This document shows, piece by piece, positions 30,579 through 35,414 of a DNA stretch of 64,000 nucleotides. This stretch comes from Heliocybe sulcata (Eukaryota; Basidiomycota; Agaricomycetes; Gloeophyllales; Gloeophyllaceae). Both the position numbers and the translations under genes were made by a program. Location of the stretch: contig ML213509.1 of NCBI GenBank assembly GCA_004369045.1, positions 316,858 to 380,857 of the forward strand, in the 5' to 3' direction. Every line of letters starts with the position of its first letter. The stretch's first letter is position 1. The notes under the pieces were generated by a model. It made no database searches. It was not told the origin of the DNA and saw only the letters and a list, made by a program, of their open reading frames with translations.

Positions 30579-30751
30579 GGTTGCTGGCTGCAAAGGTGTG
30601 GTGGGACACTATAATAGTAAGTAATAACCGACTAGCATAAGGAGCAGCAAGAGTATTTATAAGTAGTGTTACTGTGAGAATATAGCTCTGACTGTGGGAG
30701 ACCTCACAATATCTATTCGTTGATCTTCACGGCTTTGCCTTCATTCACGCC
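30579..30751. promoter_or_regulatory. Compact bidirectional promoter, capping protein alpha / mL58
   Basis: Only 173 bp separate the two divergent start codons. The interval is AT-rich with tatttataag near 30654 as a possible TATA-like element for either side. No other motif is convincing. Confidence 0.5.
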
Positions 30752-31318
30752 ATGAAGCCACACTTTCCTGTCTCCCACTTGGGAGGTCTGCGACGTTATG
30801 CCACGAAGGTAACTCCTCGAAAATATATGCCAGCTGAGCGGCCCCCGTCCAAGTACTCGGATCCGCTCTCGACGAGCTCAAACGCAGTCGACACCCAGCT
30901 GGAGAGCAACCTGACCTTTATTCACCGCCCACCCCCGTCACAACCATCGCCCTTCTCGTATACGACCAACCCAGTTTCTCCTTTACTGCGCTCACCAAGC
31001 GAATACTCCCCAGAGGGCGTTCCCCCATACATCAGACCCTCAGCGGAGAAGCAACCGCACCCGCGCATGAGTGACGAGGACCTCGCGGAGCTGAAGAAGC
31101 TTAGGCTACAAAACCCAAGGAAGTGGACGCGATCAGAACTCGCACGCAAGTTCAATTGCTCGGCGCAGTTCGTTGGGATGGTGACCAAGGTACCGAACGT
31201 ACTGAGGAAGGAGATACGGCGGGAGAAGGCTGCGAAGGATGAGGAGGCCAGGATGAAGTGGGGCCCGAGGACGAGGTTGGTGAGGGAGCTTGCGAAGAAG
31301 AAGAGGGAGTTCTGGTAG
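30752..31318 (+). CDS. MRPL20: Mitochondrial large-subunit ribosomal protein L20 (mL58)
   Basis: This is a single-exon gene of 188 codons. The N-terminus MKPHFPVSHLGGLRRYATKV is basic and hydroxylated, consistent with a mitochondrial targeting peptide with cleavage near RYATK. The C-terminal half carries the MRP-L20 domain: MSDEDLAELKKLRLQNPRKW, then the helix-turn-like SELARKFNCSAQFVGMV, then a highly basic tail KWGPRTRLVRELAKKKREFW. Those features are diagnostic for fungal mL58, a component of the mitochondrial 54S subunit. Length is normal for the family. It converges on the SET-Tad3 gene with a 117-bp gap. Confidence 0.9.
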   Translation: MKPHFPVSHLGGLRRYATKVTPRKYMPAERPPSKYSDPLSTSSNAVDTQLESNLTFIHRPPPSQPSPFSYTTNPVSPLLRSPSEYSPEGVPPYIRPSAEKQPHPRMSDEDLAELKKLRLQNPRKWTRSELARKFNCSAQFVGMVTKVPNVLRKEIRREKAAKDEEARMKWGPRTRLVRELAKKKREFW

Positions 31319-31435: not shown

Positions 31436-33261
31436 TCACGCATCCACCTCCTCACCAACGCCCTTCTTCGCCTTATTCCCTCCCTTCCACACCCCAATCC
31501 CGAACCGATGATTTACGCCCTCCAAGCGAGGGAGACACGCCGCGCCTCCACATCCGCCCGTCCTCTCCATAGGGTACAAGTACATTACCTCCTTCACTCG
31601 CGAATGTAAAAGCGCCATGCTGCACATGATGCAGGGCTCATGGGTCGTGAAGAGTGTCAGCGACGTAAGCAGATAGTGCATGCCATTGGAGCGTGAGGGT
31701 GCTGCTGTGAGTGCGTCCGTTGGTGCTAGACCAGGCGTGAGGGTCGATTCTTTTTGGAGTTCTCCTCGAGTGTCTGAAGTCTCAGAGGAACTGCTAGCGC
31801 GGTGATCCGCGATAGCCCTGACCACGTTGATCACGGAGTGCTTCAATGGGTGCGCAAGACTCTTCCTAGTGTCAGACGCAACGAAATCCCTCCTTAATCC
31901 GTCGTCTGCAGTACTTTCGTCTTCCGATGCGAAGTAAGGTATCGGAACGTACGCCGCTATGGGCAGCTGCAAAACGATGAGCATGGTGAGACCATGTCGA
32001 CGCGACTCTGGCGATACTCACCTCGCCATTGTCCTCCGCTTCCCTAGCAGCTCTCACCACCCTCCGCATCGCGTCGCATGCCCACCTCACTTTCCCTCTC
32101 TCCCACAACTCTGGCTCACCCTTCCTTCTAGGAGCGTAGACTGTCGGCCACAGGCTCGATTTGACTTTGCATGAGCTCAGCGTTAAGGCGGCAGTCTTTG
32201 GTACGTCTAGTACATAAGGCTCGGACAACGGAGACTCGAGGACAGGAATCGGTGGTGGTGGTTGAGTGTCATGGTGAGGTGAGAGGAGTACCGAGGTAGT
32301 GTTGGGTGGGGAGGGGAGCTTGCGCACGCGTTTGAGGTGGGAATGGAGGGGGGTGTCGAAGGAAGTTTGTTTGAGCCATCTGGAGGAGGAGACTTCAGCA
32401 CAGATTGTCCATAGTAATGAGCGTAGTGACTTACTTTAGCACTGCATTGGTCTGGCGCGGATCGGGAAGGTCCACGACCCATACCTTTGCTAACTCGATC
32501 AGAACCAGCGGTCAGCAAAAGATAGAGAGGAATGAAAAGGTGCGCTCACTTGTCTGGACCTGATCCACGGTCTCCTCCTCCGGATCCTCAAACAGCTTGA
32601 GCCTTTCGAACGGCAAATCCTCCTCGTCAATCACGTCACAAGGATCACCGTCCGCGAACGTGAATATATCCTTCCCGCTACCCTCGTTCACCATCCCCTC
32701 AGCTTCGATCTCAGACAGTCCACCCCACCCATCTTCATTAGTCCCTGGCTCAGATGGCGCTGGAGGTGTACCGTCGGTGTTCTCGAACCGCTGCTCATGT
32801 CCGTAGAATATGCAGAGCTCCTCGTCCGGGGCGACGGCACGCGTGGTCGTGTACCGGATGGAGTCCGTCTCAATATCGGCGGTGTAAGAAACATTAGGAT
32901 GATCGGAGTGGTTGAATAGCGAGCCTGCCTGGGCCTTGAGTAAATAAAACAGCGCGACAGGTGCAGGATGAGACGCACCCAAACCCTGGGCTAATGCCAT
33001 GCGTCCATCAGGCCATTTGAGCGGGTACTGGTCGAGCACAGTGTGCTTTCCGTAGGCATTGTACTCATCCTTCGTGAATAGGAGGACTGGGGAGATTTCA
33101 AGGACGGTTTGCGCGTCGATCTGTCGTTCCGCTGTAACCACATCGCATGAGCTCTTGATTTCTGCAGCACAGGCAGACTACGACGCACCGAATACTCCCC
33201 TGCCTTTCCCCTCTGAATATCGTACATGGCTGGGTGCTTTGTGGCGAGATGCTGATGACAT
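31436..33261 (-). CDS. SET-domain protein fused to tRNA A34 deaminase subunit Tad3
   Basis: The start MSSASRHKAPSHVRYSEG is at 33261. A 57-bp intron joins GKGRGVF in frame to AERQIDAQTVLEISPVLLF. The SET domain continues through HTVLDQYPLKWPDGRMALAQ, SLFNHSDHPNVSY and EELCIFYGHEQRFE, as in small SET proteins such as fission-yeast Set7. After EEETVDQVQT, an intron ending gttag joins in frame to TKVWVVDLPDPRQTNAVLK, the standard N-terminus of Tad3/ADAT3, then LHSHLKRVRKLPS. The deaminase part has HSV where active deaminases have HAE, and TTHEPCIMCSMALLHSR with the zinc-binding Cys pair. The Glu-to-Val change is the hallmark of Tad3, the structural partner of catalytic Tad2 in making inosine at tRNA position 34. 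The Tad3 part has no in-frame ATG of its own near its start, which supports one polypeptide. The stop is at 31436. Confidence 0.82.
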
Positions 33262-33517
33262 CCGGCAAACCGTCCGAACTCGCGCGTGATGGGACGTCGA
33301 TTTCGAGCGCGTCTCAATATGGTAATAAAGCTTCTGGATGCGGAAGTTTTGCTCCGTGAAGTCTCTGTACTTCTGCGCTGTAATCTTAGAAGATGTCGCC
33401 TAAGGAAGTACGACAAGGCGGCTGTATCCATGAGATCAGAACCATCCCAACTTATGTTACAAATAGTGATATACAAGCCAGCGCCGCTGCTAGCACACGT
33501 CTACAAGGTTACACCTC

Positions 33518-35414
33518 TTATAATTTGGCTTTCTCGCCTCCGAACTGCGATTCGGTCACACCCTTTCCCATCGCTGCAGTAGACGAGACACCACCAGTAA
33601 CAGTCTTCAGCAGGTTATCCATGTAGTCGGCGCCGCTCCACTAGAAGCCGTGTATCAGCCCAAGAATATCTCCAGTGCAACGATAGGGATGCGTACCTTC
33701 TGGTGGGTCAAGACGTCGCAGCCGATCTCTCGCTCTCTACGCTGGACAAGTTCCACATACGCCTTCATACCCTCCTGTGCATAAGCACGCGCGAAGAGGT
33801 CGGAGATGTAGGCATTGGAGTGCAAGCCTCCGAGCTAAAAGCAGTCACCGTCAAATACGAGCGAAGCTCACAGAAATTATCGACTCACAGTGATAAACTG
33901 CCACACAAACCCAAGCTTGCCAAGTTCCCAGACGTACCCCTTCATATCATCCGAGCCTAGCCCGGCTGCGTCCCAGTTGAACGACGGACTCAGATTGTAC
34001 GCGAGCCACTGCTTGGGGTACACAGCGTGGACACCATGAGCGAACTCCTGCGCCTGCGCCAGGATAGGCTTCTTCGTCTCCATCCAGAGCAGGTCTGCGT
34101 ACGGTGCGTACGCAATCGCGCGGTTGATGGCGCACTGCGTGCCGCCCTGGTAGCGATAGTATCCCTCGCGGGTGCGCGGAGCCTCCCAGTCGAAGTAGGG
34201 TACGGACTTGAGACCGAACTCCTTCTTTGCGATCTCGATGGCTTGAGGATATGACACGTGCGCCACGCGGGACGCGAACTTCTCGAGGGTCTGCTGTGAT
34301 GCACGAGTTTGGTCACGGAGGGCGTTGGCCAGGACATCGGAGAAAAGAGCGAGGTTAGCAGCGGCTATCCACTCATCTTCGACAGCCTGCAGAGCGTCTC
34401 CGGTCTTCCCGGCCGCGTCGGCTTCATTCATCACGACCACAAGTGGCCGCAAGGATGGATTCGTCGAGCCCAGGATGAAGGGGTGGTCACGCTCGTCGAC
34501 ATTCGTCGTGATGAGCGTCGCTGCCTCCGAGTCCGTCCGCGCAATGACGAGATTATCCACGCCCATAACATCGAACTGCAGGCGAATCGCGATCAACCGG
34601 TTGATGTGCTCCTGGATCGGCACCAGAACTTTGCCAGCCATATGCCCGCACTTTTTCGTGCCCGGCGCCTGATCCTCGATGTGGATTCCGGCGGCGCCCT
34701 TCTCCACGAACATCTTCGCGAGCTTCATGACAGCCGTGAAGCCACCGTGTCCCGTGTCGGCGTCGGCGACGATTGGGCGGAGATAGTCAATAACGGGGGT
34801 GCGGCTGAGCTCCGCTTCGGACATGTTAGTTCGGGCTTCACGTTGCTTCCTGTCATGGAAGAGCTGCGCCATGAAGAGGTGTTCGACTTTGTTGGGGACG
34901 GTGTTTGAGGGGTAATCTGAATAACACCAGTCAGATACATAACAGTAACAGGTACCAATCATACCAACCTGCGAGATCTGGCCCGGGTTCATTCGTACTT
35001 GAAGCTGTACTTGACGATTGCCAACCGGAAACATATACCGTTTCAAGGTACTTGGCCATCTGGGTTACTTGCACGGGATCAAGGCTATGGGGATCTTATT
35101 AACAAAACGCCTTATTATGGAATCATCATACGCACGCGCCGTAGGTATGTGATGGAGTACCCTCCTTGAACCGTTTCGATAAGATGGCCCATAACTTCTT
35201 GGCCTGGATGTTTGACGGGTACTGGATGGGGATGGTTCCTCGCTTGGATACAACTTGGGCTGCGGTGTACGGTCTCTTGACTCGAGAGAACCGTTCATTC
35301 TGTCGACACTGTTAGTCTCAACATACTCTTCCATGTAACAGATTTACAAACCTTCCACCAGTTCTCCACCTCCTTTACTTCAGCCTGGAAAGCGACTCGT
35401 TCTTGGTGGACCAT
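33518..35414 (-). CDS. Isocitrate lyase (glyoxylate cycle)
   Basis: Isocitrate lyase splits isocitrate into glyoxylate and succinate, allowing growth on acetate, fatty acids or ethanol. The start [20 protein letters not shown] is at 35414. Spliced exons then give [20 protein letters not shown], the fungal phrase [30 protein letters not shown], and the catalytic [11 protein letters not shown] near 34640. Further on, [20 protein letters not shown] and [20 protein letters not shown] follow. The protein ends [10 protein letters not shown] with TAA at 33518-33520. The last three residues AKL fit a peroxisomal PTS1 signal. The pattern matches glyoxysomal isocitrate lyase (AcuD type) better than mitochondrial 2-methylisocitrate lyase, which would carry an N-terminal presequence. 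Introns are short. Confidence 0.94.

Follow-up and report, generated by a model that had tools for sequence, protein, structure and literature searches.

A gene model joining a Set7-type SET domain and the tRNA deaminase subunit Tad3 in Heliocybe sulcata

The locus and its gene model

Here, we report a gene on the reverse strand of a 64,000-nucleotide stretch of contig ML213509.1 of the basidiomycete Heliocybe sulcata (GCA_004369045.1; the window, with positions counted from its first letter) in which a Set7-type SET domain and Tad3, a subunit of the tRNA A34 deaminase, share one reading frame. The model has six exons (Table 1), and its start at 33261 and end at 31436 are exactly those of the first-pass annotation. 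After removal of the five introns the coding sequence is 1545 nt long and translates into 514 residues with 0 internal stops; this six-exon frame and the coding-scored linker described below bear out, at the level of sequence, the earlier proposal that SET and Tad3 are encoded as one polypeptide. The introns are, in order, 57, 54, 60, 55, and 55 nt long, and a CTNA motif is found in five of five, 13-26 nt from the 3' end, in a scan of the region 12-40 nt from that end that carries no chance control. Retention of intron 1, 3, 4, or 5 (four of the five) leads to an early stop and retention of intron 2 to none; with intron 3 retained, the frame stops after 212 residues, and with intron 3 spliced the junction is in frame. 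GC3 of the SET, linker, Tad3 N-part, and Tad3 C-part segments is 0.63, 0.61, 0.63, and 0.61, respectively.

Table 1. Features of the SET-Tad3 locus in window coordinates
Feature	Position	Strand	Content and basis
SET-Tad3 fusion gene, coding span	31436..33261	(-)	6 exons, 514 aa; spliced model without internal stop
Exon 1	33189..33261	(-)	aa 1-25; start ATG and GKGRGVF motif (aa 18-24)
Exon 2	32979..33131	(-)	aa 25-76; SET core; Set7 alignment
Exon 3	32550..32924	(-)	aa 76-200 and first base of codon 201; FNHSDHPNV (aa 79-87), EELCIFYG with Tyr116, entire linker, start of Tad3 homology
Exon 6	31436..31966	(-)	aa 339-514; deaminase-like domain of Tad3; Pfam, PDB matches, motifs
Introns 1-5	33188-33132, 32978-32925, 32549-32490, 32434-32380, 32021-31967	(-)	all GT-AG
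Intron 3	32490..32549	(-)	phase 1; in-frame stop when retained
SET domain	32785..33240	(-)	aa 8-122, introns 1 and 2 included; Pfam SET, 5h6z, Set7 identity
Acidic linker	32569..32784	(-)	aa 123-194; 23 D/E and 3 K/R in 72 residues
Tad3 tRNA-binding N-terminal domain	32022..32568	(-)	~aa 195-338, introns 3 and 4 included; mouse ADAT3 and yeast Tad3 alignments
M153	32692..32694	(-)	sole in-frame ATG of the linker; Tad3 alone might start here

An isocitrate lyase gene lies directly upstream on the same strand, at 33518-35064 (-) (33877-35064 tested by PDB search); its last exon, if ending at 33518, leaves 256 bases to the fusion start. On the other side, a convergent open frame at 30692-31318 (+), a putative mitochondrial ribosomal protein L20 gene, ends 117 bases from the fusion stop.

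The two halves and the joint between them

The first half is recognized by Pfam SET over aa 20-117 (E 4.4e-14; 53.2 bits vs a cut-off of 22.4), and among PDB entries it is matched best by S. pombe Set7 (5h6z; E 4.3e-33, residues 8-139), to which it is 48% identical over 120 gap-free columns. The cofactor and active-site motifs of SET domains are G-x-G, N-H-x-x-x-P-N, and a Tyr; the segments found here are GKGRGVF at aa 18, FNHSDHPNV at aa 79, and EELCIFYG at aa 110 (Tyr116), and the core residues of all three are common to the fusion and S. pombe Set7. We assign the domain to the Set7 type on the SET signature, the Set7-level similarity, and these cofactor and active-site motifs, and with the motifs kept, it is probably a working lysine methyltransferase.

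The second half belongs with Tad3/ADAT3. Its deaminase-like domain matches Pfam dCMP_cyt_deam_1 (E 5e-7) and carries HPLKHSV (aa 377), EPCIMC (aa 448), and VNHRF (aa 489), i.e., a deaminase fold with PCxxC in which Val occupies the catalytic Glu position of HPLKHSV. The same inactivating valine is carried by FgTad3 (PMC11156358) and by mouse ADAT3 (PMC8216470; the articles cited by PMC number are drawn on here as excerpts). The T. brucei, mouse, and yeast ADAT3/Tad3 chains are among the 22 PDB-search sequences that match the fusion. An identity with bacterial TadA was rejected, the NCBIfam TadA equivalog giving 43 bits vs a cut-off of 150 and TadA chains matching more weakly. Ahead of the deaminase-like domain, pairwise alignments reveal the eukaryote-specific N-terminal tRNA-binding domain: that with the mouse ADAT3 N-domain begins at aa 198 (0 of 1000 shuffles of aa 123-345 equal its score), and the N-terminal end of yeast Tad3 aligns to aa 195-239 (1 of 1000 shuffles equals its score). 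A PDB search with residues ~172-354 alone (Tad3 N-part and linker end) did not find Tad3, so the N-domain call rests on the whole-protein PDB matches and the pairwise alignments; two unrelated proteins that matched the N-part (E 0.28 and 4.4) are attributed to chance. In ADAT3 this domain is required for tRNA binding and deamination, as excerpts of two papers state (PMC8216470, PMC9643335). Tad3 had been noted as a separate protein elsewhere, and indeed the yeast (328 residues) and mouse (317-320) Tad3/ADAT3 chains match the Tad3 half only, and Fusarium Tad3 (428 aa) is described, in the excerpt, as an N-domain plus a deaminase domain (PMC11087585).

Similarity to Tad3 starts at aa 198 and 195 in the pairwise alignments and at aa 189 in HMMER, i.e., 3-12 residues before intron 3, which splits codon 201, and hence within exon 3. 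The first-pass annotation had taken KVWVVDLPDPRQTN for the complete N-terminus of Tad3, and this has to be given up, the homology beginning upstream of the intron. It had also placed the joint at a phase-compatible intron; here the phase stands, intron 3 being phase 1 and in frame so that the two parts are not in different frames, but the joint itself is inside exon 3 and the intron is within Tad3. A better supported description is one open exon that runs from the second half of SET through the linker into the start of the Tad3 homology. Because SET, linker, and first Tad3 residues are common to exon 3, the fusion does not rest on intron 3.

The linker is open in frame, with a chance of ~0.033 for its composition, and its coding score (0.287) is the best of the six frames, the next two (0.147 and 0.081) belonging to antisense frames that are also open. 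None of 20,000 first-order random sequences with the linker dinucleotides equals this score, under a coding model whose training set was 12 long ORFs from the window; these are not proven genes, and at least some are not coding, since two pairs among them overlap. Four linker matches to oncomodulin (best E 0.038) were judged to be chance. A linker that stays open, with codon bias in its frame as far as the splice site, argues against two adjacent genes having been wrongly joined, i.e., a SET gene that ends in the linker or in intron 3 followed by a Tad3 with its own upstream exon or a non-ATG start. A SET protein of that kind would find its end in retained intron 3, but AATAAA and ATTAAA are absent between 32860 and 32380 (fungal polyadenylation signals are loose), intron 3 contains no ATG, and exon 4 contains no in-frame ATG (the one at 32482 is out of frame); we consider such a misjoining very improbable.

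In mouse ADAT3, residues 25-33 are a strand of the deaminase core ahead of the N-domain (PMC8216470, excerpt), and residues 4-12 of T. brucei ADAT3 form an N-terminal linker (PMC9643335, excerpt). By analogy, Tad3's own N-terminal strand in the fusion may lie at ~aa 178-195, in exon 3 at the 3' end of the linker. At the sequence level, however, the linker before aa 201 is not similar to yeast Tad3 residues 1-36, as 1662 of 2000 shuffles score as well, and the placement is not confirmed by this comparison.

In-frame ATGs are present at residues 1, 69, 153, and 323 and at five further places. Those that precede Tad3 are only M1, M69 (inside SET), and M153 (in the linker), M323 being inside the tRNA-binding domain; the earlier statement that Tad3 lacks a start codon of its own near the intron is thus correct for intron 3 and exon 4, the nearest upstream ATG being M153. 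As no later ATG keeps the N-domain, translation of Tad3 requires either the SET frame or M153, barring a non-ATG start. The start context of M153 is GAGGGGATGG, with G at -3 and +4, and that of M1 is TGCCGGATGT; by start-context rules, the former looks better. One locus could then yield two proteins, i.e., SET-Tad3 from the full transcript, Tad3 alone from a shorter transcript that starts in exon 3 or from initiation at M153, and a 212-residue SET protein from retention of intron 3. In Fusarium, TAD2 and TAD3 have short sexual-stage transcripts with alternative initiation, and that of TAD2 starts inside the ORF; however, both TAD3 transcripts encode the same protein (PMC11087585, excerpt). Nor is intron 3 special in this respect, since early stops also follow from retention of three other introns, and we regard the production of two proteins as unlikely, though a serious candidate. 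As a side observation, an out-of-frame stretch of 146 codons begins with an ATG at 33431 (-), 170 bases upstream of M1, and overlaps the fusion start; if transcribed, it could dampen translation from M1.

Copies in the genome and the Tad2 partner

The genome assembly (31.6 Mb in 51 contigs, possibly incomplete) was searched with the parts of the fusion, the best candidates being scored. With the Set7-like query, the three exons that encode it are the only matches at E up to 1, and Pfam SET in general has 17 genome matches listed, that of the fusion included. The Tad3 N-part matches only itself, and the C-part finds, besides itself, a single further place, C2:1917511-1917669 (E 1.2e-6, 49%), whose open frame reads HAELEAID...EPCIMCASAL...GGCGSVLGVN. 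Eight genome places match the deaminase family PF00383, and the two classified are the fusion and C2. Among the best candidates scored there was neither a second Tad3 nor a second Set7-like SET, which leaves the fusion as the sole representative of each found in the genome. The C2 gene is presumably Tad2, a name that we take from its motifs; on this motif-based naming, the separate Tad2 partner that goes with Tad3/ADAT3 is present in the genome.

In F. graminearum, both the TAD2 and the TAD3 orthologue are essential, according to the excerpt of a review (PMC11156358). If Tad3 is essential here too, the reading frame through SET must be kept, because the only Tad3 found is the fusion, and a little-studied type of SET methyltransferase would be obligatorily expressed with the wobble deaminase.

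No relative of the fusion from fungi was found in viral contigs (whole-protein, SET, and deaminase alignment queries) or in prokaryote genome contigs (whole-protein and SET alignment queries). A stand-alone SET protein on a Roizmanbacteria MAG contig (L021:4938-5345) is 35% identical to the fusion SET over 99 residues; this bacterial protein and a deaminase on an IMG/VR contig (L022) were set aside as distant.

Interpretation and comparison with known systems

We put at roughly 0.6 the probability that the tRNA A34 deaminase has the fusion as an obligate subunit and that the SET domain tethered to it works as a second enzyme. The single-copy gene would give one bifunctional protein, of which the C-terminal 320 residues would be an ordinary, catalytically dead Tad3. 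By homology, the Tad3 N-domain would grip the tRNA and the deaminase-like domain would pair with the separately encoded Tad2, which would convert A34 in the anticodon to inosine. The SET domain would be held by the acidic, probably flexible linker at the N-terminal end of Tad3, an attachment point that in mouse ADAT3 is the deaminase-core strand (PMC8216470, excerpt). The main effect is probably that two activities which other fungi carry on separate proteins are expressed at a fixed one-to-one ratio and in the same place. The first-pass annotation had offered coordinated expression, methylation of the deaminase or ribosome, and post-translational separation of the halves as possible roles, all of them hypothetical.

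A functional coupling between the two halves, i.e., methylation by the SET domain of Tad3, Tad2, a ribosomal or tRNA-pathway protein, or a histone so as to tune inosine formation, would fit the one copy found of each part and the kept SET motifs. In Fusarium, Tad3 carries stage-specific modifications and one methylated residue is E17; yet E17 is not a lysine, and the E17A mutant has no phenotype (PMC11087585, excerpt). A trypanosome methyltransferase, Trm140, works with ADAT2/3, but on tRNA (PMC6382703, excerpt). Passive co-expression explains the fusion equally well. The closest relative, Set7, is reportedly (from the title of a 2019 article by Shen et al.) a histone H3K37 methyltransferase, which again speaks against coupling, and we hold it to be doubtful. 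Just as doubtful is the broader idea that this fungal lineage has a wobble deaminase with a built-in methyltransferase, in which SET would methylate the deaminase, its partner, or nearby translation or chromatin proteins and couple methyl-donor supply to inosine decoding; if true, SAM-dependent signalling would be linked directly to the reading of codons.

A regulatory role of the fusion is possible. In Fusarium, Ame1 binds the Tad3 N-domain and Tad3 is modified at several sites; the Ame1-Tad3 interaction arose in Sordariomycetes (both from the excerpt of PMC11087585). In the H. sulcata genome, the family of Ame1, the Fusarium mRNA-editing activator (DUF726, PF05277), has matches at C1:1547505-1548596 and C3:1196620-1197713. 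As for mRNA editing itself, one review, in its excerpt, holds that on careful analysis A-to-I mRNA editing is not found in the basidiomycetes once reported to have it (PMC11156358); an older review accepts it there (PMC7306014, excerpt).

Both halves are known proteins, and their pairing is moderately surprising for its two partners. We found no description of a SET-Tad3 protein in the open-licence literature on Tad3, ADAT3, or deaminase together with SET or methyltransferase; protein-database annotation may well contain one. A co-mention of "Tad3" and "SET domain" was rejected, Tad3 there being a telomere protein and the excerpt making no mention of the fusion. Beyond its description, the fusion provides a starting point for asking about the role of Set7 in organisms other than S. 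pombe; it may also connect tRNA editing with protein methylation and could serve as a phylogenetic marker.

Gene fusions joining proteins that ascomycetes encode separately were already known in basidiomycetes. The chimeric SPDS-SR is found in Flammulina and 48 other tested basidiomycetes, with separate genes in the tested ascomycetes, chytrids, and oomycetes (PMC10051792, excerpt). Like SET-Tad3, it is a single-copy fusion of two proteins separate in ascomycetes, but it joins two metabolic enzymes and has been checked in >80 fungi and by transcripts (same excerpt); SET-Tad3 is described here from one genome. In the H. sulcata genome, a spermidine synthase (C14:48219-48799) and a saccharopine reductase C-terminal domain (C14:49393-50523) lie on the (+) strand 594 bases apart, and the unspliced locus C14:48219-50523 fits an SPDS-SR chimera of the basidiomycete kind. 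Elsewhere, C9 has a saccharopine-reductase-like place (the best match for that enzyme, with internal stops) and C2 a weak spermidine-synthase match, which do not adjoin. On balance, these matches speak for a basidiomycete genome.

Of the single proteins, S. pombe Set7 (5h6z, 5ww0) resembles the fusion in the motifs GKGRGVF/RKGRGVF, FNHxxHPNV, and EELCIxYG; its PDB chain, however, is 169 residues long and essentially the SET domain alone, to which the fusion adds the linker and Tad3. The Tad3/ADAT3 proteins (7bv5, yeast; 7nz7 and 9hmm, mouse; 8aw3, T. brucei) have, like the fusion, a tRNA-binding N-domain, Val in place of Glu, and a separate Tad2, and EPCxMC is common to the fusion and to mouse and T. 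brucei ADAT3; their PDB chains (317-369 residues) align to the Tad3 half only and are without a SET domain. FgTad3 likewise combines an N-domain with an inactive deaminase domain and has Tad2 as partner, but it is 428 aa long, its excerpted description is without SET, and its N-domain binds a separate cofactor, Ame1 (PMC11087585).
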